Below are positions 7,705 through 58,352 of a DNA stretch of 64,000 bases, in pieces. Numbering within the stretch: the first letter of the stretch is position 1; each line of letters opens with the position of its first letter. A program made the translations under genes and the position numbers. A model generated the notes under the pieces. That model worked only from the letters and a program-made list of their open reading frames with translations, was not told where the DNA came from and did not search any database. Source of the stretch: Cytidiella melzeri (lineage: Eukaryota > Basidiomycota > Agaricomycetes > Polyporales > Irpicaceae); NCBI GenBank assembly GCA_022592445.1, contig JABYQR010000015.1:62001-126000 (forward strand), given 5' to 3'.

Positions 7705-7950
7705 GTGCTGGTCAGTAAGCAATTTGCTGTCTGTGTTGCACCTGCCTTGGGTCACTGTACTGAAGTTGTTCTTACAGCTAGCCGTCTGACTGTACCATTT
7801 TCAAAACATTGTTGACACACCTCCATTGGTCCGGAATATTTTGTTACTTTACTGCTGGTCAGTGAGTAGATTTTTGTCCATCCTGCACTTGCCTTGAGTT
7901 ACTGTACTGAAATTGCTCTTTCAGCTAGCCTTCTTACTGTACCCTTCACA
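7705..7950 (+). repeat. Imperfect direct repeat duplicating a 5'UTR intron
   Basis: Two copies of about 100 bp start 147 bp apart (7705 and 7852) and are roughly 75-80% identical by eye. Each contains GCTGGTCA, a good donor (GTAAGC at 7715, GTGAGT at 7862), a conserved ACTGTACTGAA stretch and an acceptor followed by CTAGCC. Both inferred introns (7715-7777 and 7862-7924) are exactly 63 nt. The same exon-end motif and intron type precede SSP-B, SSP-C and, in degenerate form, SSP-D. The repeat is therefore read as a duplicated leader exon and intron of SSP-A. Confidence 0.75.
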
Positions 7951-7981
7951 AACTGCCCTTTGACATCCATCCATTACTGTT

Positions 7982-8524
7982 ATGCAGCTCTCAACCTCTC
8001 TTATTCTACTCATCACTGTTTTCACCAGTGCAGTCCATACTGTAACTGTGTCTGCCATCCCATACAGCAGCACCCACCATTCCATCTATAGCAACAACTT
8101 CAACAAGAAGAGACAGAGTGGAAACAGGCAAATAACCTCCTTGGGTGCTGGGTCCAAGCATCGAGTGGATGCATTGCCTGCGGACAAGAACAGAAATTTG
8201 CGTATTCGGGAGCTTGTTAGACATGTTAAAGGATTGTTGCAACAAAAGAAGACTGCTGAGAGCAACCTCCAGTACATGCAAAAAGAGTGGTGGAATGCAG
8301 CAGTTCTAGCTCAAGATTTCCACAATGCACATAATCTGCATGCAGATCAACCTGATCTTGCTCACGCAAAGTTGATAGAAGCACAGCATCACCAGGCCAT
8401 TGCTGCATCTTACAGAGTGATGATGGACAAAGCGCAGGAGGAGTTTAACAAAGCTAAAGCAGCATGGAGTGATGCCAGGACAGAGTTGAGAGAACTCAGG
8501 AAGAAACAATTCACATCTGTGTGA
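7982..8524 (+). CDS. Small secreted protein SSP-A, coiled-coil rich
   Basis: This intronless 180-codon frame starts with a clear signal peptide (MQLSTSL, hydrophobic core, then SAIP near residue 25). A basic, low-complexity stretch follows, including KKR near residue 43 that could be a Kex2-like site. From about residue 75 it is Gln/Ala/His-rich and predicted helical or coiled-coil. There are no cysteines in the mature part. The signal peptide closely matches that of SSP-B at 57.9 kb (M-x-LSTSL, HTVTV, SAIP-x-S), and the 5'UTR intron is shared too. The function is unknown; a secreted, effector-like or cell-wall protein is inference. It lies directly beside a dead gypsy element. Confidence 0.8.
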   Translation: MQLSTSLILLITVFTSAVHTVTVSAIPYSSTHHSIYSNNFNKKRQSGNRQITSLGAGSKHRVDALPADKNRNLRIRELVRHVKGLLQQKKTAESNLQYMQKEWWNAAVLAQDFHNAHNLHADQPDLAHAKLIEAQHHQAIAASYRVMMDKAQEEFNKAKAAWSDARTELRELRKKQFTSV

Positions 8525-11202
8525 CCCATTACCTCTTATAATCCATACTGTACTTTTACAACTGTAGTGGGTGACAATGGTTACAGCTTGCCCTCCAATG
8601 ATGATACACAAGTGGGTGTCACAGATCACAGCCCTACCAATGTTATTTTTTCCAGGAACTTTGTCACACCATGCCTGCAGTATGGGCTGAGTATGTGACA
8701 GCATATGACCCCAGCAGGGCTAACCACACATCTGCCCCCTGTATGCTAAGTTTTAGCAACTTAGCTAGTCACAAGTCACACCCAGGCCCCCTAGGGTTTA
8801 TCTAGTGTAATTCCCATAATCAATACCTTTTACCAAATTAGTTCCCTGCTACACTGTGTAACAACAGGGATTTGACCCCTTGGGAAAGATACTTGAATAG
8901 TGCACATATGTCCACACATTTTCCCCTTGCATATGTATGATAAACTTGTCCTGTGCAAAAATGGTACATTTATGTCATTGTTTTCCCATTGAAAATATTC
9001 TGAACAAATCTCTATAATATATGTCACATTCATCTTAAAACAATATGATTGATAAATACTTCATATATACATGAATTTTTCACATGCAGAACTGCCACAT
9101 ATTTCAATTTCCCCATGCCTTTTCTGGAATTTTGGTGAAAAGGTATAGCAGTTTTCATGGCAAAAAGGTGCAGATATACGCAGCATGAATCTCACAAATG
9201 TCTGGAAGATAAATGTGATATATGTTATGAGGAATTATATGAAATATTTCTTGTGGAAAAACAATGCCATACATATACCATTGTTGCACAGGACAAATCC
9301 ACCATACATATGCAAGGGGAAAATGTATGTCAGTATGTGCAAGATTTAAGTGCCTTTTTCAAGGATTCAAATCCTTGTGGTTATGCAGTGCTAAGTACCT
9401 CAGGTTGAAGTAGTTGCAATGGGGACCACAAACTACAGTAATACACACATCCAGTAGTGAATTTTACAGAAGAAATGGACATGCCACAATATTGAAAGCT
9501 AAATTATCCTCAATAATTCCTAGTGAGTCTTAGAAGAACAAAAGGTCTCCATCACTGTATTCAATGCTACAGGAAAGAACTCTTCTGCCTAGTTTTCAAG
9601 ATCTCCCTGATAACCCACGGTGAACAAATAGCTGCCTTTCACAACACCAGAAGACCTGTCAGGGTCATCTCATCTGGCCATGGTGCTATCTTTGCATTCC
9701 TTCTTGATGCCATGATTTACAGGCACCGACATTGTTAAACATGTGCAAGGGCCTTGTGTGAGTTATATACCTCACTAGACAATCACTTTTCTCACATTTC
9801 TATTACGATTCCTAAAGAAAGAAGAAGTGTTCCAGTGTGCTTAAGCAGATTGATGCCTTTTCAGATGTAACCCATTTGTCTCCAAAGTGTGAGAATGTGA
9901 TAGGAGAATACAGACAGTAACAGTTTCAATCAAAGCAATGAATACAGTTGATGGCATCACACTGACTTTGTTATCAGCCCTTTTAAACTTTGTATCTGAT
10001 CACTTTTGCAATCAAAATGCACTTTTTGATTTCTACAGACTGATTTTGGGTAAGAAGGTGTACATATTACACACCATTGGATAGCCCTATCTTGTGGCAA
10101 CATCCCGGTACAAAAATTTTGTCAATTGAAGTGGAATTGAGCAAGTTATGGCTAGTCCACTGAAAAAAGTCACTCAGACTCAGATTCAAACTCCATTCTT
10201 GCTGGCACATGATGTCAAATTCTGGTCAGGTACATGTACAGCAATCTATAGTCTCAGAGTTGTTTAGCATTGCCTATTTGGGGGTGGGGTTCAAAAGGAG
10301 AAGACAGAGAGGCAGCTAAACATCTGGTGAATTCTGTAGAGAGGGGTAGCAATTACCCCCACGTGATGTATTTGATTGCAGTCACAACACTCATGTCTGT
10401 TTCAAGTGCCAAGTATCTTATTGACAAAGCTTGGAAGCCATTTCATTTGTGTAGTCATAACCTACCACCAGGAAAGTTTATTAGTGTGTACTCTCAATGC
10501 CTGAGCCCACAAACAACTTGTAGAGATTGAAGCTCCCTGACGCGACGCAACACGTCCATAACGCATCCATTATCAGGTGTTTATTATTATTGTGCTCGTG
10601 TGACCTGCGCTCCCATCCTCTCTTCCTCACTTTGTCCTCGATCCCTTCCCTCAAAAGCTCATATAAGTCAATAGCTTATAATAAAATGCTTTAACCCATT
10701 CTTCTACTGCTGGATTCCCTAATGGTGCACTCGGCTCGGCTCCACACTGCTAATAAGAAGTCTTTGACATCAAAGTCTGTCTGGAGCAATGCCCCCACTA
10801 CACTCAAGGTCCTGTTAGCTCCGTAAAAGGTGCAGAAAGGCCTCAAACTGAGGGGAAGCTTGAGGAGAGCCTCTGTAGAGGCGTATTCATCAGCCACCTT
10901 GCACACAAGATCTCAAATTTCCTGGGATGTTTGTTGTCAAAGCTTGACAAGCTGTTCAACACCTGCCGCAACCATCCAAACGTTTTGGAAACAAGCTTCA
11001 GCGGTGTGCTTTATTGCCTCGCAAAAGGTGTAATGAAAGTTGCCTAGCAGAAGAGCTTCATCAGTAAAAAGTTCTCGGATTTGTGGCAAGACTCACTTGA
11101 ACTGACGTAGTATTGAGCTCTTTGTGGTGCAGATTTTTGAATGCGTGCTTGAGAGCAAGATTCTTGCTGCTACCGAGATACTGATTGTGTATCAAGAACT
11201 AG
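8525..11202. other. Gene-poor AT-rich region
   Basis: No gene is supported here apart from the inverted repeat listed separately. Open frames in 9157-9408 are a by-product of that repeat. A short protein-like frame on the minus strand at 10906-10691 has no recognisable domain and is probably relic sequence. Confidence 0.6.
8852..9390. repeat. Large inverted repeat (foldback or MITE-like), 185-bp arms
   Basis: 8852-9036 is the reverse complement of 9206-9390 at roughly 75% identity by eye. The arms are of equal length and separated by a 169-bp spacer. The transcript could fold into a long imperfect hairpin. No target-site duplication is evident. Both arms lie in AT-rich, gene-free DNA. Confidence 0.75.
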
Positions 11203-11529
11203 TCCATCTTTGAGGCTTGGCAGGAACTGCGCAAACAAGGTTGTCCCTACCTCTATACAGAAAAGGATCTTGAGACCATTGTCCCGTATGTCTTACACCG
11301 TCCCCACTACCACCCTGTAGGCACTAGGGTCTCTGCCTTCAATCACAAGAAGTTTGCTCGTGGCAACAAGTCCATCAAAGAATATAAACGCACAGAACAT
11401 GCTCAAGCCCTTGCCAAGCGCATTGAGAAGCCATCTGTCAAGGACCACATCTCTCGAGCACCAGCACCATCTCAACCAATGTTCAGAAGCCAGTCACTCT
11501 TGACTTCATGTAACCCTGGCGCGGGTTAG
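11203..11529 (+). pseudogene. Protein-like open frame of unknown origin
   Basis: A frame of 108 codons without a usable ATG runs from just after one stop to TAG at 11527-11529. Its composition looks like real protein (Trp, aromatic and charged residues, many Lys/His) and it ends CNPGAG. I do not recognise a family. It sits upstream of a gag-protease relic in the same orientation and may be part of the same dead element or a captured fragment. Confidence 0.35.
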
Positions 11530-12129
11530 CACAGTGCTCAGAACAGCATATATACTCCAATAAGACTGAGATAATAACATTATAGTTAAACTGCCTTTTG
11601 GTGTAACAGTTATGACGTTGGAGTTCAGATCACTTACACTTCATAAGTTCTCCATCAAAGATCAAGTTGGCATTCTCACAACAAAGATTGAGGCCACTAC
11701 CAGGTGTCTCAAGATCTTGATCGAGCTTACTCATGGCCAAAATGATCAGCAGACCAAGGCAGTTTTGCTCCTCAACAAAAAGCTCCTACACCTCACCAAC
11801 CATACAGAGGAAGTACTTTCCACATGCACACCAGCCCAATTCAAAGCACTGAATTGGGGGTTACAGTGAATTGGACAGATCAACTTTACGCAATTACGCA
11901 AGAGGTTAACAGAAGTCATGAGTAGGATTGCATTTGTGAAGGACGGAGGTTACTTTAAGAAACTCCCCTTGTAATATTTAGTCATCATTGAGTGTGAAAA
12001 TAAATGCCACACCTTTGACAAAGAAATGCTGGAAGATGTTTTTGACAACAAAGAGGATCACGCTTGAATAAAAGCTTGTGAACAACAACTGTGTCCGAAA
12101 TGCAGACAGTTGTTTCCACCTGTCAGCAG

Positions 12130-13850
12130 GCATTTTTGACGAGGAGAACAGTTTTACGGATATGTACCGTGCAGAGACCAGCAACATCTGCTTGAAAACA
12201 GAACTCCGGAAATATCAGATCCACTACCAGAGCTTAGTTTAGTCTCACCACCAGTTATTCCTGAAATCCCCGTTGCTGTTCCCACCACACCGGAAATTCC
12301 ACTGGTAATTACCAATGTACCAACCACTACTCCATTTATCTCCACACCTGTCATAATGGCAACGCCTGCAATAGACCCTGCTTTAATTGCTGCAATCACA
12401 GTTGCAGTCATAGCCGCAATGCAGGCACAACCGGCTGCCCAAGTCACTGTTCACAACAGCTAAACCTGAAAAGTACAAGGGCAAACATGGTCGTAACCTG
12501 GAACAATTTCTGTCTCAGTGTGAGGCATATTGGGTGACTGCTGGAGTCACTGACAAACAGACCAGAGTTCTGATGGCAATCTACCGTTTCTCTGAAAGAG
12601 TGGCCCAATGGGCTATTCCTGTTACAGATCATATGGCTGACCACAACGGCATGCTACCAGCCAATCTTGACACTTGGGCAAAATTCAGAACTGAGCTCAA
12701 GAAGTACTTCAGCAACACAACGCCCAAATACACAGCCATTGGCAAACTGAAAAAACTCTGCAGGGCTGAGAAAAAGGAGAAGAACATTTGTGACATAGGG
12801 AAATATGTCACCAATTTCCAATCCTATGTAGGTTGCATCTCTGATCTAAGCAAAAAAAACCAAGGACATCTGTTTTATCAAGGGTCTCCCAAAGTATATC
12901 TATGGTTGATTGGTGACAGCCAAAGCCCTGCCAACAAACTACCAGTGTTGGATCGATAGATTTCTCAAGATGGCAGCTGTGTATGCTCACATCCGGGAGA
13001 CAACAGAGAAAAAGATACCCTTCATGCCTTTGTCAACTGTGTCGAGACCCAGCATGTGTCAACCCCAATTTACTCTGGTTCCTCACCCTTCCAATGGTCC
13101 TGTTCCCATGGAGGTTGATCCATCCAAAATGCAGCAAGGTTGGCAGTGCTACAACTGCCAAGAACTCACGACAGACCTGGGTCACATTGCATGTACGTGT
13201 ATAAAACCTGCAGTCCCTCGTCTACCTCCTCAAGGAGCACATGTGGCTGCTACTTACACAGAGGCCTCGTTGTCCAAAGCTGAAGGAAAGAAGCCAAAAC
13301 AACAGGAGAGTCAGGTCCCTCAGGAGTGTCTGAAGTAGCGCTCAGCACAGTACTTGGAGAGTTGGAGAAGTTGAGGGCAGAGAGCGCCAACCTCAAGATG
13401 AGACTTGAGGAGGTGTTTTGATTTGGGCTGTGAGCCGAGCTGCGCAAGCATGCCCCTTGCGTATACCATGTAATAATACATTTTCCCTACTCGCATCTAA
13501 TTTCTTAGAGACTGGTTCTGAACCCAAACATTTTCACATACCTATCACAGTCTTAGGAGTGTGGAGGTCTAAGGAAGTTGCAGCAATGATTGATAGTGGA
13601 TTCTCAACACTATTCATTCAAAAAATGGTTTGTTTCAGAGCACAATATCAGAACCCGGAAGTTAAAACAACCAATTTCAGTGTACAACATAGACAGAACC
13701 CCACATCAAGATGGGGCCATTGATGAAGTTGCCATCCTTGATATGAGGATAGGAGACCACAAGGAGAGAACCATTTTTACGCTTGCCGACATCAGACCAG
13801 AAGATGTAATCATAGGAATCAATTGGTTGCAGTACCATTTGTACCTTATA
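12130..13850 (+). pseudogene. Ty3/gypsy gag-protease relic
   Basis: Successive plus-strand fragments in different frames form a gag and protease. They are a Pro/Thr-rich N terminus (12190-12460), a retrotransposon gag core (about 12460-12960), and a zinc-knuckle region with MEVDPSK followed by CYNCQE...GHIACTC (13100-13200). A retropepsin follows with AMIDSGFS (about 13580) and a C-terminal GINWLQYH (about 13815-13840). Stops and frameshifts separate the parts, and nothing resembling reverse transcriptase follows. The sequence is unlike the gypsy element at 1-7409, so it is a second family. No LTRs could be paired. Confidence 0.75.
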
Positions 13851-16090: not shown

Positions 16091-16097
16091 CTCCCCT

Positions 16098-19000
16098 TCA
16101 AGCACGAATATGAAGTAGTTCATTGAAGTGCTTGAGTTTTTCGAGAGGTAGTGCTTTAGTAAGTGTATCAGCACGTTGATCGTTAGAAGATATGTGATGA
16201 ATAGTTATATACTTCTTGAGTACACGATCGCTGATGAAATTCTTACGAATCTCGAAGTGTTTAGTTCGTTGCAAATGTTGCTCGTCAGGTGAGCTAACAA
16301 TGGCAATAGTTGATGCACTGTCAGTATACATTTTGACAGGGTCCATAGTAGAGTTAAGTAGTTCGTCAATGAGTGCTTTTAGATATATAGCTTCAGTTGA
16401 CGCATGCGCTAAGGCATATAATTCGGCTTCGGTGACCGATAGTGTTACTAGTGAACCACGCTTACTTGACCAAGAGATAAGCGAGTCATTATATGTGAAG
16501 GTGTAGCCCATTATTGGTTTATTGCTGTATGTAGTCATACCGTCAGAATCAGCGTATCCGACAAGTGAAGTATTAGTAGTAATTGCTTGGTTTCCTAGGA
16601 CAAGCCAGTAATCGCACGTTCCCTTCAAGTATAGGTAACACTGTTTAGCTGCAGCGAAGTGTTCCTTAGAAGGGTCAGCTAAGTATCGTGCAAGTTGACC
16701 AGTGCAGTATGCAACGTCTGGTCGAGTACAGTCAGCAACGTATCGTAAACCACCGACTAAAGACATGTATTGTTTAATAGCGTCAGCGTCCTGACGAGGT
16801 TCTTTCGAGTCACGGGGGGCTAAGTTGTGCTCGTGTATCATAGGCGTACGGCGTGTATGATCGTGGTCAAAGTTGTTTCGTTTAAGTATAGTTTGGATAT
16901 AATCGCGTTGACAAAGCTTGATAACACCAGAGGCTTTGTCGTAATCGATTTCCATGCCAAGCATCCAGTGGATAGTGCCACCGTTTGTTACCTCGACATG
17001 TTGTCTAAGTGCTATCTCAAATTGTTCAGCGACGACAGAAGTGATAGTACAGAGAGTAATATCGTCGACATGAACAGCGAGTATAAGTATTAGTTTTTCT
17101 CCCCTATAAAGGTAGAAGACAGCGTTATCATAGTCTGAACGCTTAAGTCCAAGTTGGAAAAGTATATCGCATAGTACCTTGTACCAGCGACGTCCGGCTT
17201 GTTTAAGGCCATAGATAGTTTTGCGTAATTTAAGTACCCAGCCCTTAGGCAAGTTGGGCAGTAAGTCGCCAGGCGGCGGACGAAGATAAAGATCTTCATC
17301 ATCGTTAATTTTACCGTATAAGTAAGCAGACTTAACGTTGAGTTGGTTAATCTCGAAGTGTAGTGAAGCTGCAAGTGTGAGTATGAGTCGCATAGAACTC
17401 ATGCGCGCGACTGGAGCGAATAAGTCGTTTGCATAGTAATCAATACCATCGCGCTGAGAGTATCCTTGCGCAACAAGTCTTGACTTGAGTTTAGTAACTT
17501 TGCCATGTTCGTACTTAGTCTTGTAGACGAAGCGAGAACCAGTAATGTTGGCATTTGGCGGCGGGATACAGTATTCCCAAGTGCCGAGTTGTTCGAGTGT
17601 ATCAACCTCAAGTTTCATAGACTTAAACCAATCGTCTTTGAGAGGGTGATTAAGTACATCTTTGAAAGTGACAGGGTCACCGACGTCCTCAGCATAGTAA
17701 GCGTTAAACTCAGTTAAGTAGAAAGCAATGTTAGTGTCTACTTCGTCGTAGTTTAGTCCACGAGCTTTACGCGATAGTTGAGGAGTTCTGTTGGAACGCC
17801 TTGGACCAGTAGGGTCAGGCTCGTCGATTTCCATTGGTTCTATGTGAGGGTTGTCCTCAAGTTCAAGTTGTTTTTCAGTAGTAAGTTTTTCAACATTTGG
17901 TTCTTTCTCCCCTTCAATTTGTATCGTAGAGTCAACGAATTGCAAGTTACGTTCAACTCCAACACGTTGTCCGAAGTAAACGTAGTGACCTTTAGAGTGT
18001 TCAGCAAAGCCTATCCAGACTCCCCTTTTACCCTTAGATGCTAGTTTATTTGTGCGATATTCGTCGTATACAATGCACGGCTGACCGAAGACTTGAAGTC
18101 CATCAAGGTTAGCGTCTGTGCCATATCGCTTAAAGTAAGGAGTTTTGTAGTTAAGTATAGTACGAGGAGAACGATTGTACACATACATCGCGTATAATGC
18201 AGCGTACCACCATAGTCGATTTGGTAAAGATGCAGTATGCAGGTTTACTCGAATCAAGTTCATAATAGTTTGATGTACACGCTCAGCAACACCGTTTTGC
18301 TGAGGAGTATCATGTACAGTAAGACGTAGTATAGTTCCTTGAGTTTTCAAGTAAGCAGTCATAGCTTTACTGGTAAAGACACCGTCGTTATCGGCTTGAA
18401 GTATCTTGACACGAATACCATATTGCGTCAAAAGTTCAGTAGAGAAAATGACCCATTGAGTATAGGCGTCATCTTTAGTAACTAGTGGTGCAAGTACTAA
18501 CCATCTAGTAGCATCGTCGACGATAGTCAACCAGTATTTGTGTTTACCAGTAATCGACGCTGTGGGTAGAGGCCCAAAGATGTCGATATGAAAGTGATCT
18601 CCGAAAGCTTCAGCTAATGATGAAGAACGAAGTTTGGGTACAGTATTGCGATGGATATTGTTAAGTAAACAATCCTCGCACGGAGTTTCAGTATGGTCAG
18701 TTATATGATCAGTGATGATTGACGAAGTTTGAAGTAGTTTCTTGATCATGAAGTAACTGAGATGACCGAGTTTTTTATGTAGTTCAAGTAAAGTAATGCC
18801 AGTTCTATGCACGCTTGCTAAAGAAGTCACTCGAGTTGATGATAGCGTGTATAAATCATTTGATTTTCTAACAACAGCCACACAAGTCGAGTTCGAGTCG
18901 TATATAGTACAAAGATTGTGATAAAAAGTAAAACGATAATCAGAGTCCAATTTTCCAACGCTGATTAAAGTAAAAGGTAGAGTTGAGTTGAAGTAGACGT

Positions 19001-20828
19001 TCTTTAGCAGGAGTTCAGTAAGCTTACCACTTTCCTGTTCCACCTCGAGTACCATTTCACCAGCGAGTTTCAAAACTAGTTGTTCTGAGTTGGCAACAGT
19101 CAGTACGATAGTTGGTACGGAGTGGACATTGAAAAGTAAGTCTCGATACGGCGTACAGTGTATAGTCGCGCCAGTATCAAGAATATGTACCGACTCGTCT
19201 GTTGACGAAGTCGCATACAGCGGAAGTAGAGTATGAAAAGTGGTAGTAGTAAGTGAAGTACTTACGTGCATAGTGACGTCAGACTCAGAGAGAGCCGACA
19301 CCCACGCGCTCTGGTTGCGACGAGGAGTAGTTGTCGACGGACCAGCAACAGCAGCGGCGGCAGTGGCAGCTTTGCCCTTGGCACCAGCAGCAACAGACTT
19401 CCGGGTGATACCCTTCCTCTTCATCGCCTCCTTGGACTTCTCTGTCCAGGGCGAAGGGCAAGTAGGCATCGTGTGGCCTGTCTCGTTGCAGTTGTAACAC
19501 TTCATCTTTGAAGTGTCACGAACGGACTTCTCCTTCGAGTAAGGAGCAGCGGCCGCACGAGCGGAGGAAGTGGCTTTCGCCGGACGTTCGACACGTTTGT
19601 CGACTGCTGGCGACGCGGCGAATGAACCACCAGCGGGCCTATCGCGAGGAACGAGGGTTGACGAACCCTTGGACCGAGAGCGGTCAAGTGGATGAGCGAG
19701 TCGCCAACTATGAAAGTCGCGGCGGAGCTCGACGCTCAGAGAAATGGGATTGTAGTCGTACTTCTCGCCCGCGGGAGTACGGGAACGCATGCCAGCCTCG
19801 TAGCTAGCGCGAGTATGCGCATAGGCGGGGGGAATGATGCCGACGAGGGCGGAGTAGAAGATGTGTTGGGGGAATTCGATACCCTTGGACAGAATCTTCG
19901 AGTACAAGTTGTGCGCGTCGTCGAGTAGTTTGTCCATTTTGTGGACAGGACGGCGGAGGGAGAAAAGTTGGAAGATTTCGTTCGCGTCCGACATAGTGGA
20001 AGTCGGCTCGAACCGTTCGGAGAGTTTCTCCATGAGTCTGTGCGGCGCGGTCTCGTTGAGATAGTTGGCCATCACAGAGTCTGCGATGTGTCCAGCCAGG
20101 ACGTTGAAGACGGCCCGTTGGACCTCTTGAGGAATGGTAAGACCACCCCTGTAGCTATAGAAGTCGACGATGGTCGACATCGCAGTATCGACGCGGAATT
20201 TCCACATCGGCCAGGTATCAGGACCTGTAAGTTTGCCAACGTCTGCGAAGGCTTTGTGGACGTCGCTAAGCGACATAGTATACTCCACGTCGTGCTTTGG
20301 AGGCACGGAAAGGAGGGACGACACTGCTCGCGCAGAGTCAGTGGGGCCAGATGGCGAGGGGGACGGTGCACGACGGGCTCTGGGCAGTTTGCCCCTTCGC
20401 CTTTCGTGCGCCTCGTCGTCGTCCATAGGATCGTCACTATTGTCCGACGATGGCTTAGTGGTGTGACGACGGGCGAAGTCGTCGCGGAGTGTGTCGAAAG
20501 GAGTGCGACGGCGATCAGAGGGAGGAGCTGAGACTCGACGTGATGCCGTGTTGCGGGCAGTGGGATGGTCGACGACGGCAGAGGTAGAAGCGACGTTGGG
20601 AGCGTCGTCGGAAGGTGCAGGCCCTGGGGTAACAGCGCGAGAAGCGGAAGACATTGTTGGTTGTTGAAGAGGGGTAGGAGCAGGAGGAGGAGTAGGAGTA
20701 GGAGTGAAGACCGGGGTACGTCTCCTGCGAGTTGTACGAGGGATAGTGCCTCGAAGAAAGTCGGTTTGTTTTCGTTCGCGCGTAGAACGACGAGGTTGAG
20801 GCTGATCAGTAGGATCAGAGCTCATCAA
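16098..20828 (-). CDS. Copia gag-pol polyprotein
   Basis: The single 1576-residue frame carries a basic N terminus and a UBN2-type gag. A CCHC knuckle (CYNCNETGHTMPTC) lies near residue 442 and an aspartic protease with LDTGAT near 550. A GAG-pre-integrase region precedes an integrase with all three acidic residues in context: DIFGPLP near 746, ADNDGVF near 814 and AERVH near 846. Reverse transcriptase carries HVDD near 1254, a variant of the usual YVDD, and RNase H follows to the C terminus. The order protease-integrase-RT-RNase H defines Ty1/copia. The frame has no stop or shift and ends just before the 3' LTR. All parts needed for transposition appear present. Confidence 0.95.
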   Translation of the reverse strand: MMSSDPTDQPQPRRSTRERKQTDFLRGTIPRTTRRRRTPVFTPTPTPPPAPTPLQQPTMSSASRAVTPGPAPSDDAPNVASTSAVVDHPTARNTASRRVSAPPSDRRRTPFDTLRDDFARRHTTKPSSDNSDDPMDDDEAHERRRGKLPRARRAPSPSPSGPTDSARAVSSLLSVPPKHDVEYTMSLSDVHKAFADVGKLTGPDTWPMWKFRVDTAMSTIVDFYSYRGGLTIPQEVQRAVFNVLAGHIADSVMANYLNETAPHRLMEKLSERFEPTSTMSDANEIFQLFSLRRPVHKMDKLLDDAHNLYSKILSKGIEFPQHIFYSALVGIIPPAYAHTRASYEAGMRSRTPAGEKYDYNPISLSVELRRDFHSWRLAHPLDRSRSKGSSTLVPRDRPAGGSFAASPAVDKRVERPAKATSSARAAAAPYSKEKSVRDTSKMKCYNCNETGHTMPTCPSPWTEKSKEAMKRKGITRKSVAAGAKGKAATAAAAVAGPSTTTPRRNQSAWVSALSESDVTMHVSTSLTTTTFHTLLPLYATSSTDESVHILDTGATIHCTPYRDLLFNVHSVPTIVLTVANSEQLVLKLAGEMVLEVEQESGKLTELLLKNVYFNSTLPFTLISVGKLDSDYRFTFYHNLCTIYDSNSTCVAVVRKSNDLYTLSSTRVTSLASVHRTGITLLELHKKLGHLSYFMIKKLLQTSSIITDHITDHTETPCEDCLLNNIHRNTVPKLRSSSLAEAFGDHFHIDIFGPLPTASITGKHKYWLTIVDDATRWLVLAPLVTKDDAYTQWVIFSTELLTQYGIRVKILQADNDGVFTSKAMTAYLKTQGTILRLTVHDTPQQNGVAERVHQTIMNLIRVNLHTASLPNRLWWYAALYAMYVYNRSPRTILNYKTPYFKRYGTDANLDGLQVFGQPCIVYDEYRTNKLASKGKRGVWIGFAEHSKGHYVYFGQRVGVERNLQFVDSTIQIEGEKEPNVEKLTTEKQLELEDNPHIEPMEIDEPDPTGPRRSNRTPQLSRKARGLNYDEVDTNIAFYLTEFNAYYAEDVGDPVTFKDVLNHPLKDDWFKSMKLEVDTLEQLGTWEYCIPPPNANITGSRFVYKTKYEHGKVTKLKSRLVAQGYSQRDGIDYYANDLFAPVARMSSMRLILTLAASLHFEINQLNVKSAYLYGKINDDEDLYLRPPPGDLLPNLPKGWVLKLRKTIYGLKQAGRRWYKVLCDILFQLGLKRSDYDNAVFYLYRGEKLILILAVHVDDITLCTITSVVAEQFEIALRQHVEVTNGGTIHWMLGMEIDYDKASGVIKLCQRDYIQTILKRNNFDHDHTRRTPMIHEHNLAPRDSKEPRQDADAIKQYMSLVGGLRYVADCTRPDVAYCTGQLARYLADPSKEHFAAAKQCYLYLKGTCDYWLVLGNQAITTNTSLVGYADSDGMTTYSNKPIMGYTFTYNDSLISWSSKRGSLVTLSVTEAELYALAHASTEAIYLKALIDELLNSTMDPVKMYTDSASTIAIVSSPDEQHLQRTKHFEIRKNFISDRVLKKYITIHHISSNDQRADTLTKALPLEKLKHFNELLHIRA

Positions 20829-21095: not shown

Positions 21096-21100
21096 GCTAT

Positions 21101-47888: not shown

Positions 47889-48703
47889 TCATGGGGCGGT
47901 TCCTGGATGGCCTGAGCGTGAATCTTCTTTTGCCAGATATGCTTCGACCTCAGCTTTCATGCGTTGTGCCTCTTGTGAATGGAACTTGTATGCATTTGCA
48001 TGGTGTGTCCATTGAGCTAACAGATCATCTGCCCCATGTGGTCCTGCGTTCTCGATCTGAGCTGCCAATTCAGTTGCCGCACCCCTATGGAACTGAGCTT
48101 GCTGTGCGTGCTTCGCAGCGTCCCCTGCCATGAGCCGAAATTTCAGCATTTCCCGGAACCTAGGAAGCCGCGCTCTCAGGTCGCTCGGAGTGACTTGAGC
48201 CCGCTGTCCATCCAGGCTACCACGATGCCCGTCGCTCCCCGATGGTTCAGCTGGCCGAGGTCTATGTTAATGACGTGTCGTAGACGGAGCAGAGGACCTA
48301 TCCATAGGCGCACCTGGCTGAATACCTGAGTACGGAGGCAACGCTTCATCCTCGTAAGGTGGAGGTGGATGTTGAGGAGCATTTGGGGGTGACAAGCGCC
48401 CGCCACGAGCAACGAGCTCCACGGATTCTGTAAATTCTTCGTGGCGACGACTGCAGAAGAAAGCCCGCTGAATATTGCGCTGCAATAATAATGAGCAGAG
48501 GCGACCTACAACTTATAAGCACTTTCCATGCTGAGCACAGGCAGCTGCATCGCCCCGCTGTCGTCAACGCCGTTCCCGGGAGCGGCCATGGCAGATGTGT
48601 CCGATGGCGTGTTCGAAGACATGGCGCCATAAGCGACGGATACAGACCTAGCGTGACCAGCGATGGCAAGTAACGCGAGAGCGGCGGGGACGTAGGAGCG
48701 CAT
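47889..48703 (-). CDS. Small secreted protein SSP-C
   Basis: Three exons (48703-48513, 48450-48334, 48261-47889) sum to 681 nt, 226 residues. A signal peptide is followed by TPSDTSAMAAPGNGV, matching SSP-D exon 1 (TPSDTSVVAASGNGV). Intron 1 has the same phase and position as in SSP-D. Exon 2 is Pro/Tyr-rich (PPPPYEDEALPPY) and exon 3 is Ala/Gln/His-rich and helical, resembling the C-terminal half of SSP-A in style. Intron 2 (48262-48333, 72 nt) removes an in-frame stop at 48267-48269; if it were not spliced, the protein would end there. A 57-nt 5'UTR intron (48870-48814) is predicted. The function is unknown. Confidence 0.72.
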
Positions 48704-48859
48704 GGCGATGAATCACGGCAGGAATGTGAAGAAAGGTAGGGGGAGTTTGGAACGGTGGCTCAGGCGCAGATAGCAGAATGAAAGTGGCAGTCGGGGAAAA
48801 AAGACAAGATGAGCTACAACATGTGTCAGAAGGAGCCTTCAATTCTGTGGGTAGTGGGC

Positions 48860-48951
48860 AAGATACACACCGACCAGCGCTAGCTTGCGAACGAAGGGGG
48901 AAAACTCTCAGAGAATGGGAGACAGCAGTGGGCCAGCAGCGGTATTTATGT
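48860..48951 (-). promoter_or_regulatory. SSP-C core promoter and leader exon
   Basis: On the minus strand a TATA-like CATAAATACC (48941-48950) lies about 75 nt before the leader exon end GCGCTGGTCG|GTGTGT at 48871/48870. The 50-bp block around it is nearly identical to the one upstream of SSP-D (52140-52191), better conserved than the coding exons. Confidence 0.6.
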
Positions 48952-50640: not shown

Positions 50641-51417
50641 ATTTCCCTCCTCGCGCTCTCTGTCTGTTACCTCTGCCTGTCTGTCGTGGTCTCGCCAGTA
50701 TTCCACAATACAGACGTCAAGTAATTTAAGATGTGATATGTCCACTGACAGAATGTTTGCTGTTAACAATATGTAAATGACGGTGGAATGAGTGAAAATG
50801 GAAGAGTAATCGACGTGATGGTGTGGACCCGGAGACTGTTCTGAATTTACGGCGACACAGAGACGCATGTGCTTGCAATGCCCGGGCGCAGCAGCCTCTC
50901 ATGAACGCATGTATCGCAGTCTGCGAGACCCAGAGTATACTCAGCTGAGACAAGTCCGTTCAAAGCCATACGCAAAATCGCGTTCACAACTCCAACTAAA
51001 GAGAGAGTCGTTCGAAGTTACAAGTTACTACACCGGTCCACTCCGTCAATCGAGACCGTCGATAAGTACTGCGAGCCTCGAATTCAAAGAACCGTTGATA
51101 ACTTCGAACAGTCGAGGAACTGGTCCGTCCCCCTGTGATTTGCCACGTTGGCTGTGGCAGTCTTAAGCGGTGGACTCGAACTCACCACCGGGGGGTCGAC
51201 GAAAAAGCTGCCCGATTTTCTGTGCAGTTTTGCAGCACACTTCATGGGCTGAGAGGCTTCGGTGCGCCCAAGGCAGCCGGGAGGCTAGATGCGCGTGGAG
51301 GAGTCGAGCGATTGTCAGGATTTTCAAGGCTGCTACTATCAAGGCGGTAGGGACGCGGATTTGGAATGCTAGAGAGCAACATCAATATCACGTGAAACAT
51401 TGATTGACAGAGTCGGC

Positions 51418-51962
51418 TCACCCAAGCTTCGCCAACGCTGCGTCTACTCTAAGGTTGAAGAAGTCGCTCTCCCGATCACGCTGTTTTCTCATAGCTATTG
51501 CGTTGAGGCGGTCCAGATTTTTCCGACGCTTCTCTGCTTCCTCATACATTTTCAGTTGTTCCGAGTCAATTGAGTCACTCGGAGGCCTTGCAAATGCCTT
51601 ACTCCAAGACCATGCAGATGCCTTACTCGGAGGCCCTGCAGATCTCTTACTCGGAGAATATGCAGTTTCCCCACTCGGAGACTTTGCATCATTCTCACTC
51701 GGAGGCTTGTGTGTAGGAAACAATGTGGGTCTGCAGAAAGTACGCTGAATATCGCGTTGCAACGTTGGTCAGCAGAGGCGACTAACAAGTCTATAGGACT
51801 CTCTCCGATCGCGCCGCTATTGCCAACACCGTTCCCGGAAGCGGCCACAACAGAAGTGTCCGACGGCGTGTCTGAAGACACAGAAGCGATAGGTATAGCC
51901 ATACCGTGACCGACGGTAGCAGCCAATGCGGCGAGAGCAACTCCGGCAATGCAAAAGCGCAT
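51418..51962 (-). CDS. Small secreted protein SSP-D with an 8-residue repeat
   Basis: Two exons (51962-51787, 51730-51418; donor GTTAGT) give 489 nt, 162 residues. The signal peptide (MRFCIAGVALAALAATVGHG) is followed by AIP and by TPSDTSVVAASGNGV, shared with SSP-C. Exon 2 has five Pro/Ser repeats of 8 residues (pattern PPSxxxAx) and then a charged, coiled-coil-like C terminus ending AALAKLG. There are no cysteine pairs. The 5'UTR has a 56-nt intron (52113-52058) and a TATA-like box at 52182-52191. It is paralogous to SSP-C by segmental duplication, but exon 2 onward is hardly alignable. The function is unknown. Confidence 0.75.
51577..51709. repeat. 24-bp coding minisatellite in SSP-D
   Basis: Five full 24-bp units plus a partial one, each starting ACTCGGAG or a close variant (51577, 51601, 51625, 51649, 51673, 51697). 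The period keeps the frame and encodes the 8-residue repeat. Confidence 0.85.
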
Positions 51963-52104
51963 GATTGAACAATCAGGAGTAGGTAAGGGGTAGTTTTAAA
52001 TGGGTTTGGCGTAGTTTATAGAATGAGAGTGGGAGTCACGGGAAAAGGCAAGATGGGCTACAAAAAAATGTCAGCAGGAGCTTTGAGAATCAAACGGTGG
52101 GCAT

Positions 52105-52192
52105 GATACACACCAACCGGTGCTAGCTTGTGAGCGAAGGGGAAACTCTCAGAGTGTGGGAGACAGCAGTGCGCCAGCAGGGGTATTTATGC
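52105..52192 (-). promoter_or_regulatory. SSP-D core promoter and leader exon
   Basis: TATA-like ATAAATACC on the minus strand (about 52182-52191) lies some 75 nt before the 5'UTR donor GGTTG|GTGTGT at 52114/52113, mirroring SSP-C. Confidence 0.6.
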
Positions 52193-52329: not shown

Positions 52330-53690
52330 ACCCCTACCTAGAGGTGCGGAAGAAACCAGCATGAGGATACTTTGCCAAGTTGTCCGCTTGGAGCTTCTCG
52401 CCCCGGGGTGCAGTAGCTCATGTGGGTGCATGTCGAACCACCTTCGCGAGAGCCAGAGTGAAGGTGACCGGCGATATAACCCTGGCCGTTCTTGATATGC
52501 CACACGAGAGCACCCGAGACCCCTCCCCGGCGTTGTGAATCCCGAGCACGACAGGAGTCACGCCACTAGCAAGGAAACGATTGCTGTGTATCAACCAACA
52601 GTGAGACCTGTAGCGTTGCCGTCTTGTCTAACCGTCGACGATGTCTTGGGGACTGCTCTACCTTGGACCATTCCTCGATCCAGAGCCTCCTATCCACAAG
52701 AGACTCATAAGCAGTCGGACCACCACCAATTGGAACGGGCAAGATCATTTCCATCAGCTGATACAGGGATAAAACAAGTGTGGTTGAATGAGCTGAATGC
52801 GAGACAGGAGAATGTTCGAAACGTACCCCAGCAGTCAACATTGCCTTCGAATGCGGCCTTGACGTGGTGGTCAGCGACAGCAAAACCGCCCGCCTAGTCC
52901 GAGTTGGTACGATCGTAGCCTCAATCGATATACCCAACGTTAGAGTGGAGTTTCTTTTACGACCTGATTTCACGAATGATCTTACTAAGACCGCGGTCGA
53001 ATCGACCATCTCCAGTCATGCTTGTTAGCTGACAGAGGTATCCTTTCGAAGAATATTGGAATCGGTGATGCCAAAGACCTTGTCACTGGGTAAGTTGTCT
53101 TTGCCTGGAACGCCATGAACAGGGGTGAGGAAGCGGCAAGCATCATCTCTGGAGGAGGGCGAGAATCTCTTGGGATGCGTGTCCTATCCAAATGACGACT
53201 CCCCTCACTACCCTCCTGCTGCCGGGGCGGTATACAGCCAAGCAAGACTCACGGACGTCAAGCTGATGTTTCGAGCTACGATGATTTTCACAATCTGGAG
53301 GCCGACAGTGTCCCAGACCTTGCCTTCGTTGAGCTGGGTGTCGAAGACTCCGCGGAGAAATTTTACGTGAGCCGGTCCAGGGTTTCATGAAGGGCACGGT
53401 GCTAAAGTTTGACCTGTAGACGAGAACGGGATGGTCGTCGTTGTCCGTGATCTCGCAATGATATGTACTTCGGTTAAAGGGAGAGAGACCAAGCCCGAGC
53501 CAAGATGACTGCTTCGCTGGCCTTTGAGAGGGCGAAGAGTTCGAGGTAACTAGGGCTCTCGGATAACTGGTATACCTGAACATTTTGAAGGAGAGTTCTG
53601 GATGGAATACGAGAAGAAGGGTACAGGTGAATACAAAGGGCTCACTCGACTGAACAGTTGAGGTGGGGTGGTTCGAGGTCAAGATGTGTT
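52330..53690 (-). pseudogene. Relic of an agaricomycete trypsin-fold protein, copy 2
   Basis: Reading down the minus strand, fragments in shifting frames show LVYRSNFSTV, QLNEGKVWDTVGLQIVKI, SQEILALL, SDKVFGITDSN and finally SGALVWHIKNG...AGHLHSGSREGGST...YCTPG. The last is the protease-like C-terminal core. The expected GDSG reads GVSG (about 52513-52524), and there are several frameshifts. It is dead, but more complete than copy 1. Confidence 0.65.
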
Positions 53691-53930
53691 AAAGGTGCCT
53701 GTCAGTAGTACACCGGCGAGGAGAAGTAGTACTGCCAGAGAACTTGAAACTCTGATTCAAAAAACGCTCGAATTTTGGGCACGCGTCCAAATCATGTGAC
53801 CGCGTCGCGTTGTGTTTGTGTCGCGTAACACCACGACCATCACACCTTGTCCTGGGTCCATGCTCAGCGCTGGGCTTCAACCTCACGAGCTCGCAGGCCA
53901 AGGGTGAGCTCAAGACTCACATTTTTTTAA

Positions 53931-56776
53931 ATGGCTGCAACACCGAAAAAGCTCGTCCATTGGGCACTCGACCTCGGGAAATCCCCAAGTCTTGGCTCAC
54001 CCACATCCGAGGGCTCGTCCTCCGACTCTTGCTCCTCCAGCCTCCCTTACATCAACTCCCAACTCATCGCACATGGCTATACACACCAGCCTGGGATCTC
54101 ACTCGATGGCGCGAGCAAGGCCGATGCGGAACGGGTCGTCAAATGTTTGCTGTCAATGCTCAGCCAGCGTATGGTGAGTCAACCCTCGCGGCGCTGCTGC
54201 GTCTCGCAAGTAGTATCTCAGCTGCTCTATTTCCAGGAGGACATGTCGCGTACGGAAGACTTGTCTACCAAGATTCGGACGCTCTCGTATGATCACGAGC
54301 GCCTCATGTCTATGTACCGTGCTGCGGCTGAAAACGCTGCGAACGCCGAACGAGAGATGAACATGCACAAGTCTCGTCTCGTGTATGTCCCGCTCTTAAT
54401 GACGTACGTTACAAATCCAGCTGACAGCGTATACCGTAGCTCGGCGAACCGTACCTTGCAATCGACAGAAAACGCGCACAAACAGACGACAGTAGAGCTC
54501 CAGCGTACACGCACAGCCCTCCAAGCCATACGAACCACTCACCAAGCTGAAATCAAGAAACTCGAAAAGGAGAAGGACAAGATTATGGAACGGTGGAACA
54601 AGCTCGCGGATACGCAGCTGGGCGGCAACCTCAACAGGTCTGGCCCATCCGTCGGATTCCGTTGTGCAAATGCTGAAGTCGTCGAAGCATCAGAGGTTCA
54701 ACTTCGAGGGAAAGGCCCGGGGCTTTTGGAGACGGCGTTGGAACAGGCGGAGCGCTCCAGGCATGACCTAGCCGACGAGAATGAGAGGTTGAAGGGGGTT
54801 ATTATGAGCACTGCTAATGAGTTACAGCGAACACTTTATGATGCGCGATGCGTCACCAGCTCTGAGCCACAAGAAGAAGTCAGTCCTGCATCGTTAGCTA
54901 TTTGCTCAAATGGGGATCACTCGGAAACTCACTGTTTGACATCAAAGGCTCCCATCCTGACGTCGGTGGATCTTTTCCCATTTGCTCCGGCAAATGCAGC
55001 CTGGGAGACCATCTCAGCTCTGATAAACAACATCAAGCAATCATTCGAACCCTTGGCGCACCCTGAACGTCTTCCAGGAGCGTTGCTATCAGCACAGAAG
55101 GACGAGGAGAGCAAAGAATCAGAAGATAGAGCCAGAACGCGAGAAATCGAGCGACTTCAAGCGGTGATAGCTAACCTCACGTCGGAACTAAGTGAGCAGC
55201 TTACAGTGATCCCTCGACGACTGTGTTGACCTTTGATCAGACGACGCGCAGACGCAAGCGAAGGATTACGCCGCACAGGCCAAGGAGATGTTTGAGCGTT
55301 TCGCTGAAGAACAGCGTGTGACGAATGCTACCATTCATTCAAAGATTGTTGCGGCGCAGGACGAGGAGAGTGAGCGGCTTACGCAGCGCGAAAGGGAGCT
55401 TGACGAGGAGCGCCAGAAGATAACTGACGCGGTTTTGAAATTGGGCAGAGAAAAGGCTGCGCTCGAGGTAGGCGGCTCCTTCAGCTCATGTCGGTCACCA
55501 AATTTTCGCTGATTAATATGCCCCTTAGACTGAACGCATTCAATTCTTGGAAGAGAGGAGAATGTGGCAAGTTCAAGCCATGATGACCGACTTGCCTCCC
55601 CCCACTTTTGATGAAGCCGGCCCCTCTACCTCGTCCTCGCAACCTGTTGTCCGAACACAATCCTCGAAACGATCTCCGGTTCCTCCGGTTCGAAAATCGC
55701 CTCGCAAATCGAAGAGCAGCGTTTCAGCTGTCGCGAGCGGTGCCAAGAAGGCTCGTGCTCCTCGACGGTCATCTGGCCTTCACAAGGGTAAAGGGAAAGA
55801 GAGGGCATCATCCTCTAAAGTGATACCATCCTTCGAAACGGAAGTGATTGCCCCGCAGCCATCGCGCGTGCAGCCATTATTCAAGACAAAGATGACGGGC
55901 TCACTACCACAGCCGCCGTTAGCTATTGCTTCCACCTTTACTCTTCCTCCCCCGTCACCTGCTGCTCGGCTTCCTTCTAGAGAGTCAATATTTGCACCCA
56001 GCACAGCCACACAACCTTCAAGCAAGCCCGACCCTCCTTCGCACACTCCTCAAGACCTACCTCCCCCTGATCTCATCCAGAATTCATCTATCACGCACCA
56101 TTTAGGCCCTACTGCGACGAGCTCCTCCGCGACAAACCTTGTACCTCAGCCACCTACCACTCCCGGTGCTCGTCGACCGTTCCCCATGGCGAAGCCGTTT
56201 GCCCCACACATGACACATGCATACTCACCTGTCAAACCCAGCCCGCTGAGTCGCATCCTGTTGCTCGGCAACTCTCCCGACAGTCCAGACGGGCCTGCAG
56301 CTGCAGCCCTGTTGGGCTCCCTCACGGAAGAAGATGAAAGCCTGGAACATTCGCCGACGCCAATGTTCAGACAACCACAGTTGAGCCTCGCTGCCGAGTT
56401 GGGTGTGTCAGAAGATGAGGATGTTCCTTTGCGAGACAAGGTGAACAGTGTGGTTGAACTTCCCCCTAGACCTACTTCGTCGATGGGTCGTTACCCTACT
56501 GCGAGGGATAAGGGCAAGGGAAAGTCTCAATCTTCAGGCTCTAGTAGCTCCCGTCCCCCGATAGAGAAGCCGAGGACAAGGGCGAAAGGGACTGGAGCAC
56601 CTTCAAAGACGTCAAAGGTTATTGGTGGGGGTGTGGCAAAGACGAGTACGAGGATGACGACGAGGTCAGCTGTCGCGGCTGCAGGTCCTTCCAAGCCTCC
56701 TCCCAGTAAAGGTGGGCCAAGACGGGTGCCGATAGGCAGCTCGGAGGCTGGGCCGGCGCCAGCTTGGAAAGGTTAG
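53931..56776 (+). CDS. ADIP/Msd1-like coiled-coil protein (microtubule anchoring)
   Basis: Five exons: 53931-54173, 54237-54382, 54440-55191, 55241-55467, 55529-56776 (2616 nt, 871 residues). The N-terminal third (INSQLIAHGY...HERLMSMYRAAAENAANAEREMNMHKSRL...QRTRTALQAIRTTHQAEIKKLEKEKDKI) matches the afadin- and alpha-actinin-binding (ADIP/SSX2IP) family. That family includes fission yeast Msd1, which anchors microtubule minus ends at the spindle pole body. Long coiled coils continue to about residue 460. The last 410 residues are Ser/Pro/Lys-rich and disordered with many SP/TP sites. The first exon was the right breakpoint of the tandem duplication, and this copy remains whole. Confidence 0.85.
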
Positions 56777-57019
56777 AGGAGGCTTTCCGTTTATCTGTCG
56801 GTGTTACCGTGCTGTTGTATTCTAGGACTGTCGGAGGGGTAATGTGGTGCATGTTTTCTTGCTGCGTTCACTTACTAGCGAACGATGTGCATGCTTGCTG
56901 GCGGAATTTGTACCCTCTGTTGTGTAGCTATCTGGTACACGTCCTGCCGGTTGTACAGAGGATTGTTCAGACTCGGACTGACCATGCCAAAGCTGTCCGT
57001 ATACCGCCTTGAGCGTGAT
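56777..57019. other. Intergenic, 3' region of the ADIP-like gene
   Basis: No gene or RNA is recognised. Confidence 0.5.
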
Positions 57020-57020
57020 C

Positions 57021-57208
57021 ACAGCTGAAACAATAACGATAGACCGCCGCGGCGGAGTGTGTGCAGAGCAGAAATGGCACGGCAGGGCATGCCCAGGACC
57101 CCGATAGCCCAGTTGCCCGCACACTTCTCACTCAGGCCCGCGCCACTTGAGCCACTTGTGCTCTGCACGCACCTACCCTGGCGGTCTATCGTTATTGGGC
57201 TGGCTGTA
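57021..57208. mobile_element. MITE, copy 1 of a two-copy family
   Basis: Inverted ends of about 30 bp share ACAGC and CAATAACGATAGACCGCC. Internal motifs GTGCAGAGCAG, GACCCCGATAGCC and CAGTTGCCCGC recur in the copy at 58353-58538. There is no coding capacity. Confidence 0.75.
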
Positions 57209-57419
57209 ACAATGGGACCGGTGAGCTATTGATCTTGTTTGCACAGGACGCCTCACAGAGCTCACGACCTTGTCAGAGATACTTTTTCCGTACTTATTGA
57301 TGAAACTGGCTGAAAACCCGGGAGGGAAGTGGGCAGCGCAGGACAGCTCGCGATGACTATAGAAACTTGTGTTACCCTAATTGTACATGTACAGGGCGGG
57401 AGTAAGAGAACAGTACACC

Positions 57420-57965
57420 CTAAGGGCGACGCGTTCCCTTCGGGTCTACCCTTTTCAGATAGTCCCATAGCTTTTTTTCGTCAGGGCTTGCATCCATAGG
57501 AAGCTCTTTCCCGTCTGAGTGCAAGGCCTCAAGTTTTTTCCACATGGGCACCAACTTAGCGTCTGTCATTGTAGTATCAGGACCGAAAATCTCTTTCAAT
57601 GTCTTGGGGCTGTTGGTAGTGCGTGAATGCAGAACAGTAGCTCTTGCGTCGTCGCTGTGAAGGACATCTCGGCGTACTTGGCTTGGCAGGTCAGCGGCAT
57701 CATTGAATTGGTCGTAAAGACTGTATGAGAGAATTGTCAGAGAACGGTGTTCATTCACCATACAATACAAAAGCGCGAGTAGTAATACTCACTGCGAGTC
57801 TCCTGTGCTCGGTCCCTTCGAGTTTTTGGACAGGGTGTCGGGGGAACTTGGAGTTGGATCGCGGGATTGTATATCGCTGTGCGGGATGGCAGATACTACA
57901 GTCACCGTATGGAACGCGCCTGTGACGATGGCGGCGAACAAGACGAGGGAGGTCGAGAGACGCAT
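57420..57965 (-). CDS. Small secreted protein SSP-B
   Basis: Two exons (57965-57793, 57720-57420; 72-nt intron) sum to 474 nt, 157 residues. The signal peptide reads MRLSTSLVLF...HTVTVVSAIPHSD, nearly the same as SSP-A at the other end of the window. The mature protein is hydrophilic, with LPSQVRRDVL and a C-terminal helical stretch (MWKKLEALH, DEKKLWDYLKRV). It has no cysteines. A TATAAAAG box lies on the minus strand near 58157-58164. A 61-nt 5'UTR intron (58079-58019) follows the leader exon end GCGCTGGTCG and resembles the SSP-A leader introns (ACTGTACT...CAGCTA). Two related MITEs flank the gene. The function is unknown. Confidence 0.8.
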
Positions 57966-58352
57966 GGCAGAGGAAGTTGAGAGGTGGTTAGAATGTCAAA
58001 GGCCTGCAAAGACAGTAGCTGCAAGGACAAAGTTTGAGTACAGTGGCTCAAATGTGAGTGCAACGCGAGCGACGCTTACCGACCAGCGCTGGAGCGATGA
58101 AAGAACTTGGGGGGAAGGGGTGCTGAGTGCTGAATATTGAGTAGTGAACTGTGGGCTTTTATAGATCTTGTGGGTCCATGTGCTGTGCTGGTGCACACAT
58201 GCTAATCCATCTTTTGTTTGGCAACAGTGATCCACTCGCTGCAGTGCTTGAAAAAAGATTGATCATCATAATTTCTTCTGAATCCGAGTCGACACTGGAT
58301 ATTGCAAAACAGTGCTTACAGTAGAAGCCTCCCAAGCTATTATTCGGGAAAA

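Follow-up and report, generated by a model that had tools for sequence, protein, structure and literature searches.

Dispersed gene families of Cytidiella melzeri that probably combine conserved prepro regions with hypervariable cargo

Venoms and the effectors of pathogens include families of hypervariable secreted proteins whose defining feature is the front end. Conotoxin superfamilies are named after the conserved signal peptide, and the mature peptides are short and disulfide-rich. In fungi, the MSDIN precursors of Amanita (amatoxins and phallotoxins) constitute a family with a conserved leader and a hypervariable core; these precursors are short and cytosolic, serve for the formation of cyclic peptides, and have no signal peptide. 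The Crinklers of oomycetes (CRN) possess a conserved N-terminus and diverse C-termini, and the HVLVXXP motif that ends the N-terminus is presented as a recombination hot spot in PMC5289972. The Ssp1 family of Pleurotus ostreatus, a white-rot basidiomycete saprotroph, consists of proteins of <300 aa with a signal peptide and no known domain; six members (poSSP) are given for strain PC9, and Ssp1 homologues for >20 species, in PMC7105643. Here, four genes for putatively secreted small proteins (A, B, C and D) from a 64,000-nucleotide stretch of Cytidiella melzeri (assembly GCA_022592445.1, contig JABYQR010000015.1, positions 62,001 to 126,000; hereafter the window) are compared with these systems. 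C. melzeri is a wood-inhabiting fungus placed in the Polyporales, family Irpicaceae. No paper naming Cytidiella melzeri was found in the open-licence PubMed Central literature.

Genes A and B represent one family and genes C and D another. The two families are likely to be prepro-conserved and cargo-hypervariable, with most of the change being local hyperdivergence and, at least once, replacement of the cargo. Both are large and dispersed, and would encode prepro-proteins behind a leader with one or more introns in the 5' untranslated region (5'-UTR). Such a prepro-protein would be composed of a conserved signal peptide, a propeptide in which a motif of the KR/TKR or LLARG type is often seen, and a mature part (the cargo) that is hypervariable, mostly helical in look and cysteine-poor. 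Gene copies would have been dispersed to other sites. Mature segments have outpaced their near flanks in several close pairs, which remain alike in leader, signal and pro part and also in the near 3' flank; in C/D, at least once, the cargo and everything downstream would have been replaced behind a nearly unchanged leader, and the position of the C/D cargo exon, with similar introns of one phase on either side, would allow in-frame exchange. The proteins would most likely be exported and then cut after the pro part, with both expression and secretion presumed from the sequence.

All genome searches were conducted against the C. melzeri assembly (49.7 Mb, 731 contigs). Member loci are designated by L-numbers, public C. 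melzeri proteins by P-numbers, and contigs by C-numbers. Signal peptides were called by eye from hydrophobic N-termini.

The initial annotation had described the four genes as a single family with signal peptides and 5'-UTR introns of 56-63 nt. Four reading frames with hydrophobic N-termini are present in the sequence, and predicted splice sites were located for introns of 63 and 63 (A), 61 (B), 57 (C) and 56 nt (D). Leader, signal and mature part were then scored for each pair of genes against 1000 shuffles. Kinship of A and B was confirmed for the leader (1/1000 shuffles as good) and for the signal peptide (0/1000), and that of C and D for the leader and for the signal/pro part (0/1000 each). 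No cross-link was obtained in signal peptides or mature parts, and the only hint in the leaders is a short stretch of B and C around the GCTGGTCGGT block (8/1000). A single family of four genes was thus ruled out, and A/B and C/D are treated as two families of parallel build. Mature parts had also been said to differ, which holds for A and B (841/1000 shuffles as good) and is borderline for C and D (14/1000). The claimed lack of cysteine pairs applies to A, which has no cysteine past residue 26; of 33 single-exon members, 19 have none there and the other 14 carry one to four cysteines.

The proposal that the same leader stands in front of other mature parts was borne out by a genome search with the DNA of the A locus (7705-8524). 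At least 46 matches besides the query itself were obtained with the best 40 of 191 candidates scored, and several genes are counted twice among them via tandem leader units. All matches end at or before position 443 of the 820 query positions, close to where the signal/pro part finishes. When only the mature part of A was used as query, nothing besides itself was returned below E=0.2 in the genome, with one match at E=0.23. In DNA searches of the whole genome, the A query misses B and the B query misses A; a signal-peptide query from L004 recovers both. Kinship that mature-part searches would miss is revealed by leader and signal-exon searches, and these could be used to screen the genomes of other fungi for comparable families.

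A 48-aa signal/pro query from L011 gave 150 matches at E<=1.2e-4 in the best 150 of 325 candidates scored, with 41-79% protein identity apart from the locus of the query itself and a stop in 0 of these 150. The second signal/pro query, from L004, gave 104 matches at E<=1e-3 in the best 150 of 229 candidates scored. Together with 33 positions read from loci, the two queries place the A/B family at 198 or more distinct sites on 152 contigs; 13 of the sites lie within 5 kb of another. With the C/D query, all 57 candidates were scored, 47 of them at E<=1e-3, and a stop falls inside 5 of the 57. The two families together exceed 240 loci. As controls, the N-terminus of a window gene resembling a flavin monooxygenase (by eye) matched itself only, and a hand-scrambled query had a single match, to its parent at the tail that had been left unscrambled (E=0.005). 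Three protein searches for relatives in other species returned C. melzeri proteins only; since candidates needed exact shared words, absence from other species is not demonstrated by these searches. One of the proteins found via the A signal peptide, P0001, is identical to the product of L071.

Two inverted pairs of members were observed, L002/L003 on C278 (about 9 kb apart, 99.3% identical over the aligned stretch) and L071/L072 on C482 (about 5.5 kb apart, 98.7% over the aligned stretch), and these appear to be recent local duplications. On contig C2, five C/D loci are spaced at 25-40 kb (at approximately 170, 202, 242, 281 and 306 kb), all on the + strand.

Six close pairs were compared segment by segment, with substitutions counted by a simple Nei-Gojobori procedure on pairwise alignments. 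In L004/L007 the upstream stretch (-700 to -310) has an identity of.938, the 5'-UTR.939, the signal.940 and the pro part.963; the value falls to.683 in the mature part and returns to.912 in the next 250 bp, beyond which the loci no longer align (.415). The corresponding values for the mature part and the next 250 bp are.602 and.808 for L004/L008, and.589 and.836 for L007/L008. In L071/L072, 19 changes were counted in 345 mature bases (18 nonsynonymous and 1 synonymous) versus 2 in 1048 other aligned bases, namely 210 upstream, the signal and pro part, and 700 downstream (p=2.6e-10). The mature part is clearly more diverged than its own non-coding flank in these four of the six pairs. Nonsynonymous change exceeds synonymous change in the mature part of L004/L007 (p=0.02). 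All gaps in the mature parts of L004/L007 and L004/L008 are multiples of three, which speaks for maintained proteins. Because the near 3' flank is conserved like the 5' leader, most of the change looks like local hyperdivergence and not like a leader moved to new cargo. Mutation of the repeat-induced point mutation (RIP) type was considered and rejected, as transitions make up just 12 of 19 mature differences in L071/L072 and 75 of 152 in L004/L007.

A different pattern was found in the C/D pair L043 and L044, which lie about 38 kb apart on the same contig. These loci are 96% identical over 1143 bp, comprising about 840 bp before the start, the signal exon, the first intron and the pro motif, and then do not align; the break is located at the end of the pro motif in this single pair. 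The stretch behind the L043 cargo resembles those of L055, L046, L059 and L042, and that of L044 does not. No two-intron model was obtained for L044. A genome search for a second copy of the L043 cargo gave none (30 of 30 candidates scored). Barring an assembly error at this place, the cargo and 3' flank of L044 appear to have been replaced.

The features of the four window genes, as located or predicted, are as follows.
7700..7847 (+): gene A, first tandem leader unit (about 148 bp), with a predicted 5'-UTR intron at 7715-7777 (63 nt); among the genome matches of the leader pattern given below
7848..7981 (+): gene A, second leader unit, with a predicted 5'-UTR intron at 7862-7924 (63 nt); among the same pattern matches
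7982..8524 (+): gene A (A/B family), single coding exon, 180 aa
58019..58079 (-): gene B, predicted 5'-UTR intron, 61 nt; also among the pattern matches
57793..57965 (-): gene B (A/B family), signal exon ending CGCA/GTGAGT, phase 2
57721..57792 (-): gene B, phase-2 coding intron; the public model P0003, which belongs to L011, has one of this kind
57420..57720 (-): gene B, second exon with the pro motif (LYDQ...VLHSR) and the hypervariable mature part
48814..48870 (-): gene C, predicted 5'-UTR intron, 57 nt
48510..48703 (-): gene C (C/D family), signal exon with phase-2 end
48451..48509 (-): gene C, phase-2 coding intron, resembling the D intron by eye
48267..48450 (-): gene C, second exon as far as a TAA in frame, with the pro motif RRHEEFTESVELVARG and a proline-rich part
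52058..52113 (-): gene D, predicted 5'-UTR intron, 56 nt
51787..51962 (-): gene D (C/D family), signal exon with phase-2 end
51731..51786 (-): gene D, first phase-2 coding intron
51422..51730 (-): gene D, symmetric cargo exon (phase 2-2)
51369..51421 (-): gene D, another predicted phase-2 intron, which resembles the first one (score 16.5 against a shuffle mean of 1.1, 0/200 as good)
51242..51368 (-): gene D, predicted tail exon, by analogy with the public models P0007, P0009, P0010 and P0011

With its two tandem leader units, gene A has two predicted 5'-UTR introns. Its protein has a signal peptide to about residue 26, a propeptide to KKR (residues 42-44) and a helical-looking mature part. The TAA of gene C lies in frame at 48269-48267 (-), and the same frame is then open to 47889; this codon may be the protein end, part of a small intron, or the mark of a decayed gene. 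In gene D, the stop near 51418 may fall in the second phase-2 intron (51421-51369), and a third exon is probably present by analogy. As for the neighborhood of these genes, long frames that look by eye like a Gypsy-type polyprotein (15-7409, +) end about 290 bp upstream of the gene A leader, and an open frame of 1576 aa at 16098-20828 (-) resembles a Copia-type polyprotein by eye.

In the A/B family, 17 loci were described by their longest two-exon model. In sixteen of these the signal exon is followed by an intron of phase 2, typically CGCA/GTGAGT...YAG/TCT, which is also the intron used by P0003, the public model for L011. Further A/B genes are single-exon. KR or RR occurs within residues 30-52 in 19 of 33 of them, and several further members carry TKR at a later position. 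The KR/TKR in the A/B pro part, which we take to be a Kex2-type site, would be consistent with Kex2-type processing of the propeptide. The longest member model, L029, is 283 aa in length, and all are under 300 aa.

In genes of the C/D family, a phase-2 intron separates the signal exon from the pro motif (consensus RRRGEPTEFVELLARG) and the cargo, and in many of them another phase-2 intron and a tail exon follow. Of the eight public C/D proteins, six were threaded onto loci. The first two introns are both of phase 2 in P0007, P0009, P0010, P0011 and P0014; the third intron of P0009 is of phase 1, and P0008 has a single intron of phase 2. In the models built here, for which only phase 2 was permitted, 11 of 22 C/D loci give a 2-2 structure. 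Intron 1 resembles intron 2 of the same gene above 200 of 200 shuffles in 7 of these 11 genes and above at least 193 in the rest. A symmetric cargo exon, flanked by introns of the same phase, is thus found in C/D, and since both introns share their phase, in-frame exon exchange would be possible. No such exon was found in A/B, whose models contain at most one coding intron.

The leader was characterized from 66 aligned A/B upstream stretches, the consensus of which is GCTTCAGCGCTGGTCG/GTAAGTACATTG...CACTGTACTGAAATTGTTCTTACAG/CTAGCTGTC. A GCTGGTC-like motif (up to 2 mismatches) followed by one base and GT, with an acceptor behind it, is present in 51 of the 66, and the implied 5'-UTR introns have a median of 62 nt. 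The pattern CTGGTCNGTRAG-N32..60-CAGCT has 112 matches in the genome versus 4 for the reversed control. Against a set of 198 loci and 26 weaker ones, 66 of 100 listed pattern sites fall within 506 bp upstream of a signal-peptide locus. The distances group around 57, 195 and 320 bp, which would correspond to one, two or three leader units. One of the other 34 sites was read (L102), and a family signal peptide follows there. The predicted 5'-UTR intron is thereby supported by conserved splice-site sequences.

Cargo diversity was assessed in several ways. The 33 single-exon A/B mature parts fall into 21 BLASTP components (E<=0.01). Among the 1830 pairs of 61 members, the number above the 99.5th shuffle percentile is 74 for the mature part, compared with 262 when signal-peptide DNA is scored and 183 when the 100 bases ahead of the start are used. 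Ranked by cargo similarity or by leader similarity, the top six pairs are the same, which descent of whole genes would predict. Pfam gave nothing above cut-off in A and 10 further members; weak hits below cut-off to coiled-coil-type families were seen in P0001 and P0002. The cargo parts do not appear to be all unrelated, as subsets keep faint C-terminal motifs. A single common cargo domain was rejected: with a hidden Markov model of a hand-made motif, only 4 of 55 non-seed A/B members scored at <=1/100 shuffles and 8 at <=5/100, and a shared cargo motif is suggested for a subset only.

The C/D tail motif LTPExRxxLL was detected in the A/B member L075 (C667) with 13.0 bits versus at most 4.0 in its own 100 shuffles, where LSPEYRQKLLR compares with LTPEYRKELLR of the C/D members P0011 and P0013. 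This stretch may be cargo common to both families, or chance. Across 63 A/B members the motif reached <=1/100 shuffles in 3 and <=5/100 in 6, and a merger of both families on this basis was rejected as too little supported. An internal near-repeat of about 36-40 residues was noticed by eye in the L007 mature part (RRELDKVNKELQDYLTKINPELAEYKAQ... and RDDLDKVEKKKQDYLTKINPELKEIKAR...). Mature parts may also grow by internal duplication, with which short out-of-register matches of L007 to L004 and L008 fit. A mosaic origin of mature segments from other members was dismissed, as BLASTN of 15 segments against a set of member loci gave sister genes only.

Three other explanations of these data were weighed. 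Ordinary old paralogous families, in which the signal peptides are constrained and the rest has drifted without special cargo diversification, would account for the faint C-terminal motifs that persist in subsets of both families and for the uniform divergence of L005/L006. Drift, however, would not spare the non-coding flank, and this explanation is strained by L004/L007, L004/L008, L007/L008 and L071/L072, in which the mature segment is far above its own non-coding flank and UTR in divergence. The sharp break in L043/L044 also speaks against it, and it is considered quite improbable. The initial annotation had proposed a reusable cassette ahead of fast-changing cargo. This is a fair description, although most of the change looks local and the near 3' flank is also kept in the closest pairs. 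Its strong form, regular copying of leader and signal exon before unrelated coding sequence (true cassette or exon shuffling), is unlikely, if less so than simple drift. The L043/L044 pair, in which cargo seems to have been replaced, favors it, as do the symmetric 2-2 exon of C/D between similar introns and, in A/B, the phase-2 intron that follows the signal exon in 16 of the 17 models with two exons. L043/L044 is nevertheless the only clear case; no donor copy was found for the cargo of L043 or of A, some mature parts share faint C-terminal motifs, and the pairs closest in cargo are also those closest in leader. Leaders could also be alike through a transposable element, or the terminal sequence of one, that happens to lie upstream of the genes. 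Spread of the leader over 152 contigs, retrotransposon-like frames (by eye) adjoining A, and tandem leader units would agree with such an origin. The conserved block, however, continues in frame into the signal peptide and ends near the end of it, splice sites are kept, and a signal peptide follows most of the listed leader sites as well as the only other one that was read. Divergence of the members (41-79% protein identity to the query) without stops in the listed matches and frame-keeping gaps in two close pairs likewise make this source very improbable.

The reading of local hyperdivergence with at least one replacement is therefore preferred, and several results weigh against it. There is no acceleration in L005/L006 (mature.965, next 250 bp.967), and the excess in L078/L078b is modest (mature.726, next 250 bp.802). 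Nonsynonymous versus synonymous change within the mature part of L071/L072 is not significant taken alone (p=0.14), and nonsynonymous divergence (dN) is not above synonymous divergence (dS) in L004/L008. In L004/L007, synonymous change in the mature part exceeds that of the upstream flank (p=7e-6), so that protein-level selection is not the whole story; recombination, local mutation or alignment error may contribute. Replacement rests on one pair in one assembly, and a second copy of the L044 cargo was not seen among the best 40 of 1512 candidates, which is no proof of absence. One of the 17 two-exon A/B models (L068) is of phase 1, and 11 of the 22 C/D loci gave no two-intron model. Held-out motif seeds were recovered in 5 of 8 A/B cases (hand-picked; at most 2/100 shuffles as good) and, in C/D, 5 of 8 at 0/100 shuffles and one at 2/100.

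Diversifying selection is presumed to be the main driver of the mature-part divergence. The products may possibly act outside the cell against or upon other organisms, as effectors or antagonists toward rival fungi, bacteria or grazers, a role that is put forward tentatively. A further proposal is more doubtful still. The C/D genes could constitute a built-in design for cargo exchange, with a 2-2 cargo exon between homologous introns behind a shared promoter, 5'-UTR intron, signal exon and pro motif, in which recombination among dozens of dispersed paralogues would generate new exports. A/B would then be an older or partly intron-less parallel, and a saprotroph would possess a repertoire of secreted proteins that, as in venoms, is renewed quickly. 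The way in which new secreted proteins originate can be tested directly on the symmetric cargo exon and on the break in L043/L044.

No fungal family of such size and build was found described in the titles and abstract starts of the open-licence PubMed Central papers listed, nor in the passages of PMC8715435 that were consulted. The products agree with small secreted proteins in having a signal peptide predicted by eye, a length of <300 aa, and no Pfam domain above cut-off in A and the 10 members searched. Unlike Ssp1, the families comprise hundreds of loci, the protein searches returned C. melzeri proteins only, and similarity is largely limited to the leader, signal and pro part. The MSDIN precursors share the conserved front and the hypervariable core and differ in having no signal peptide. 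Closest in logic are the conotoxin superfamilies, which likewise have a propeptide and a hypervariable mature part (PMC10561478). A signal peptide conserved while the mature parts differ was found here as well; disulfide frameworks were not, given the cysteine counts above. Unlike conotoxins, the fungal mature parts are mostly about 90-200 aa, cysteine-poor and helical-looking, and the families belong to another kingdom, have no venom, contain short introns, and carry a 5'-UTR intron inside the conserved block. The C/D pro motif sits in L043/L044 where Crinklers have HVLVXXP. No LXLFLAK or DWL domain was noticed in the fungal members, with no motif search aimed at them. Unlike Crinklers, the conserved part comprises signal and pro part only, and no known C-terminal domain was found. 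Two such families in parallel in a wood-inhabiting fungus suggest that saprotrophs may also run arms races via secreted proteins. The C. melzeri families would work like conotoxins, perhaps with a boundary motif comparable to that of Crinklers in the one pair L043/L044, and appear to be members of neither.

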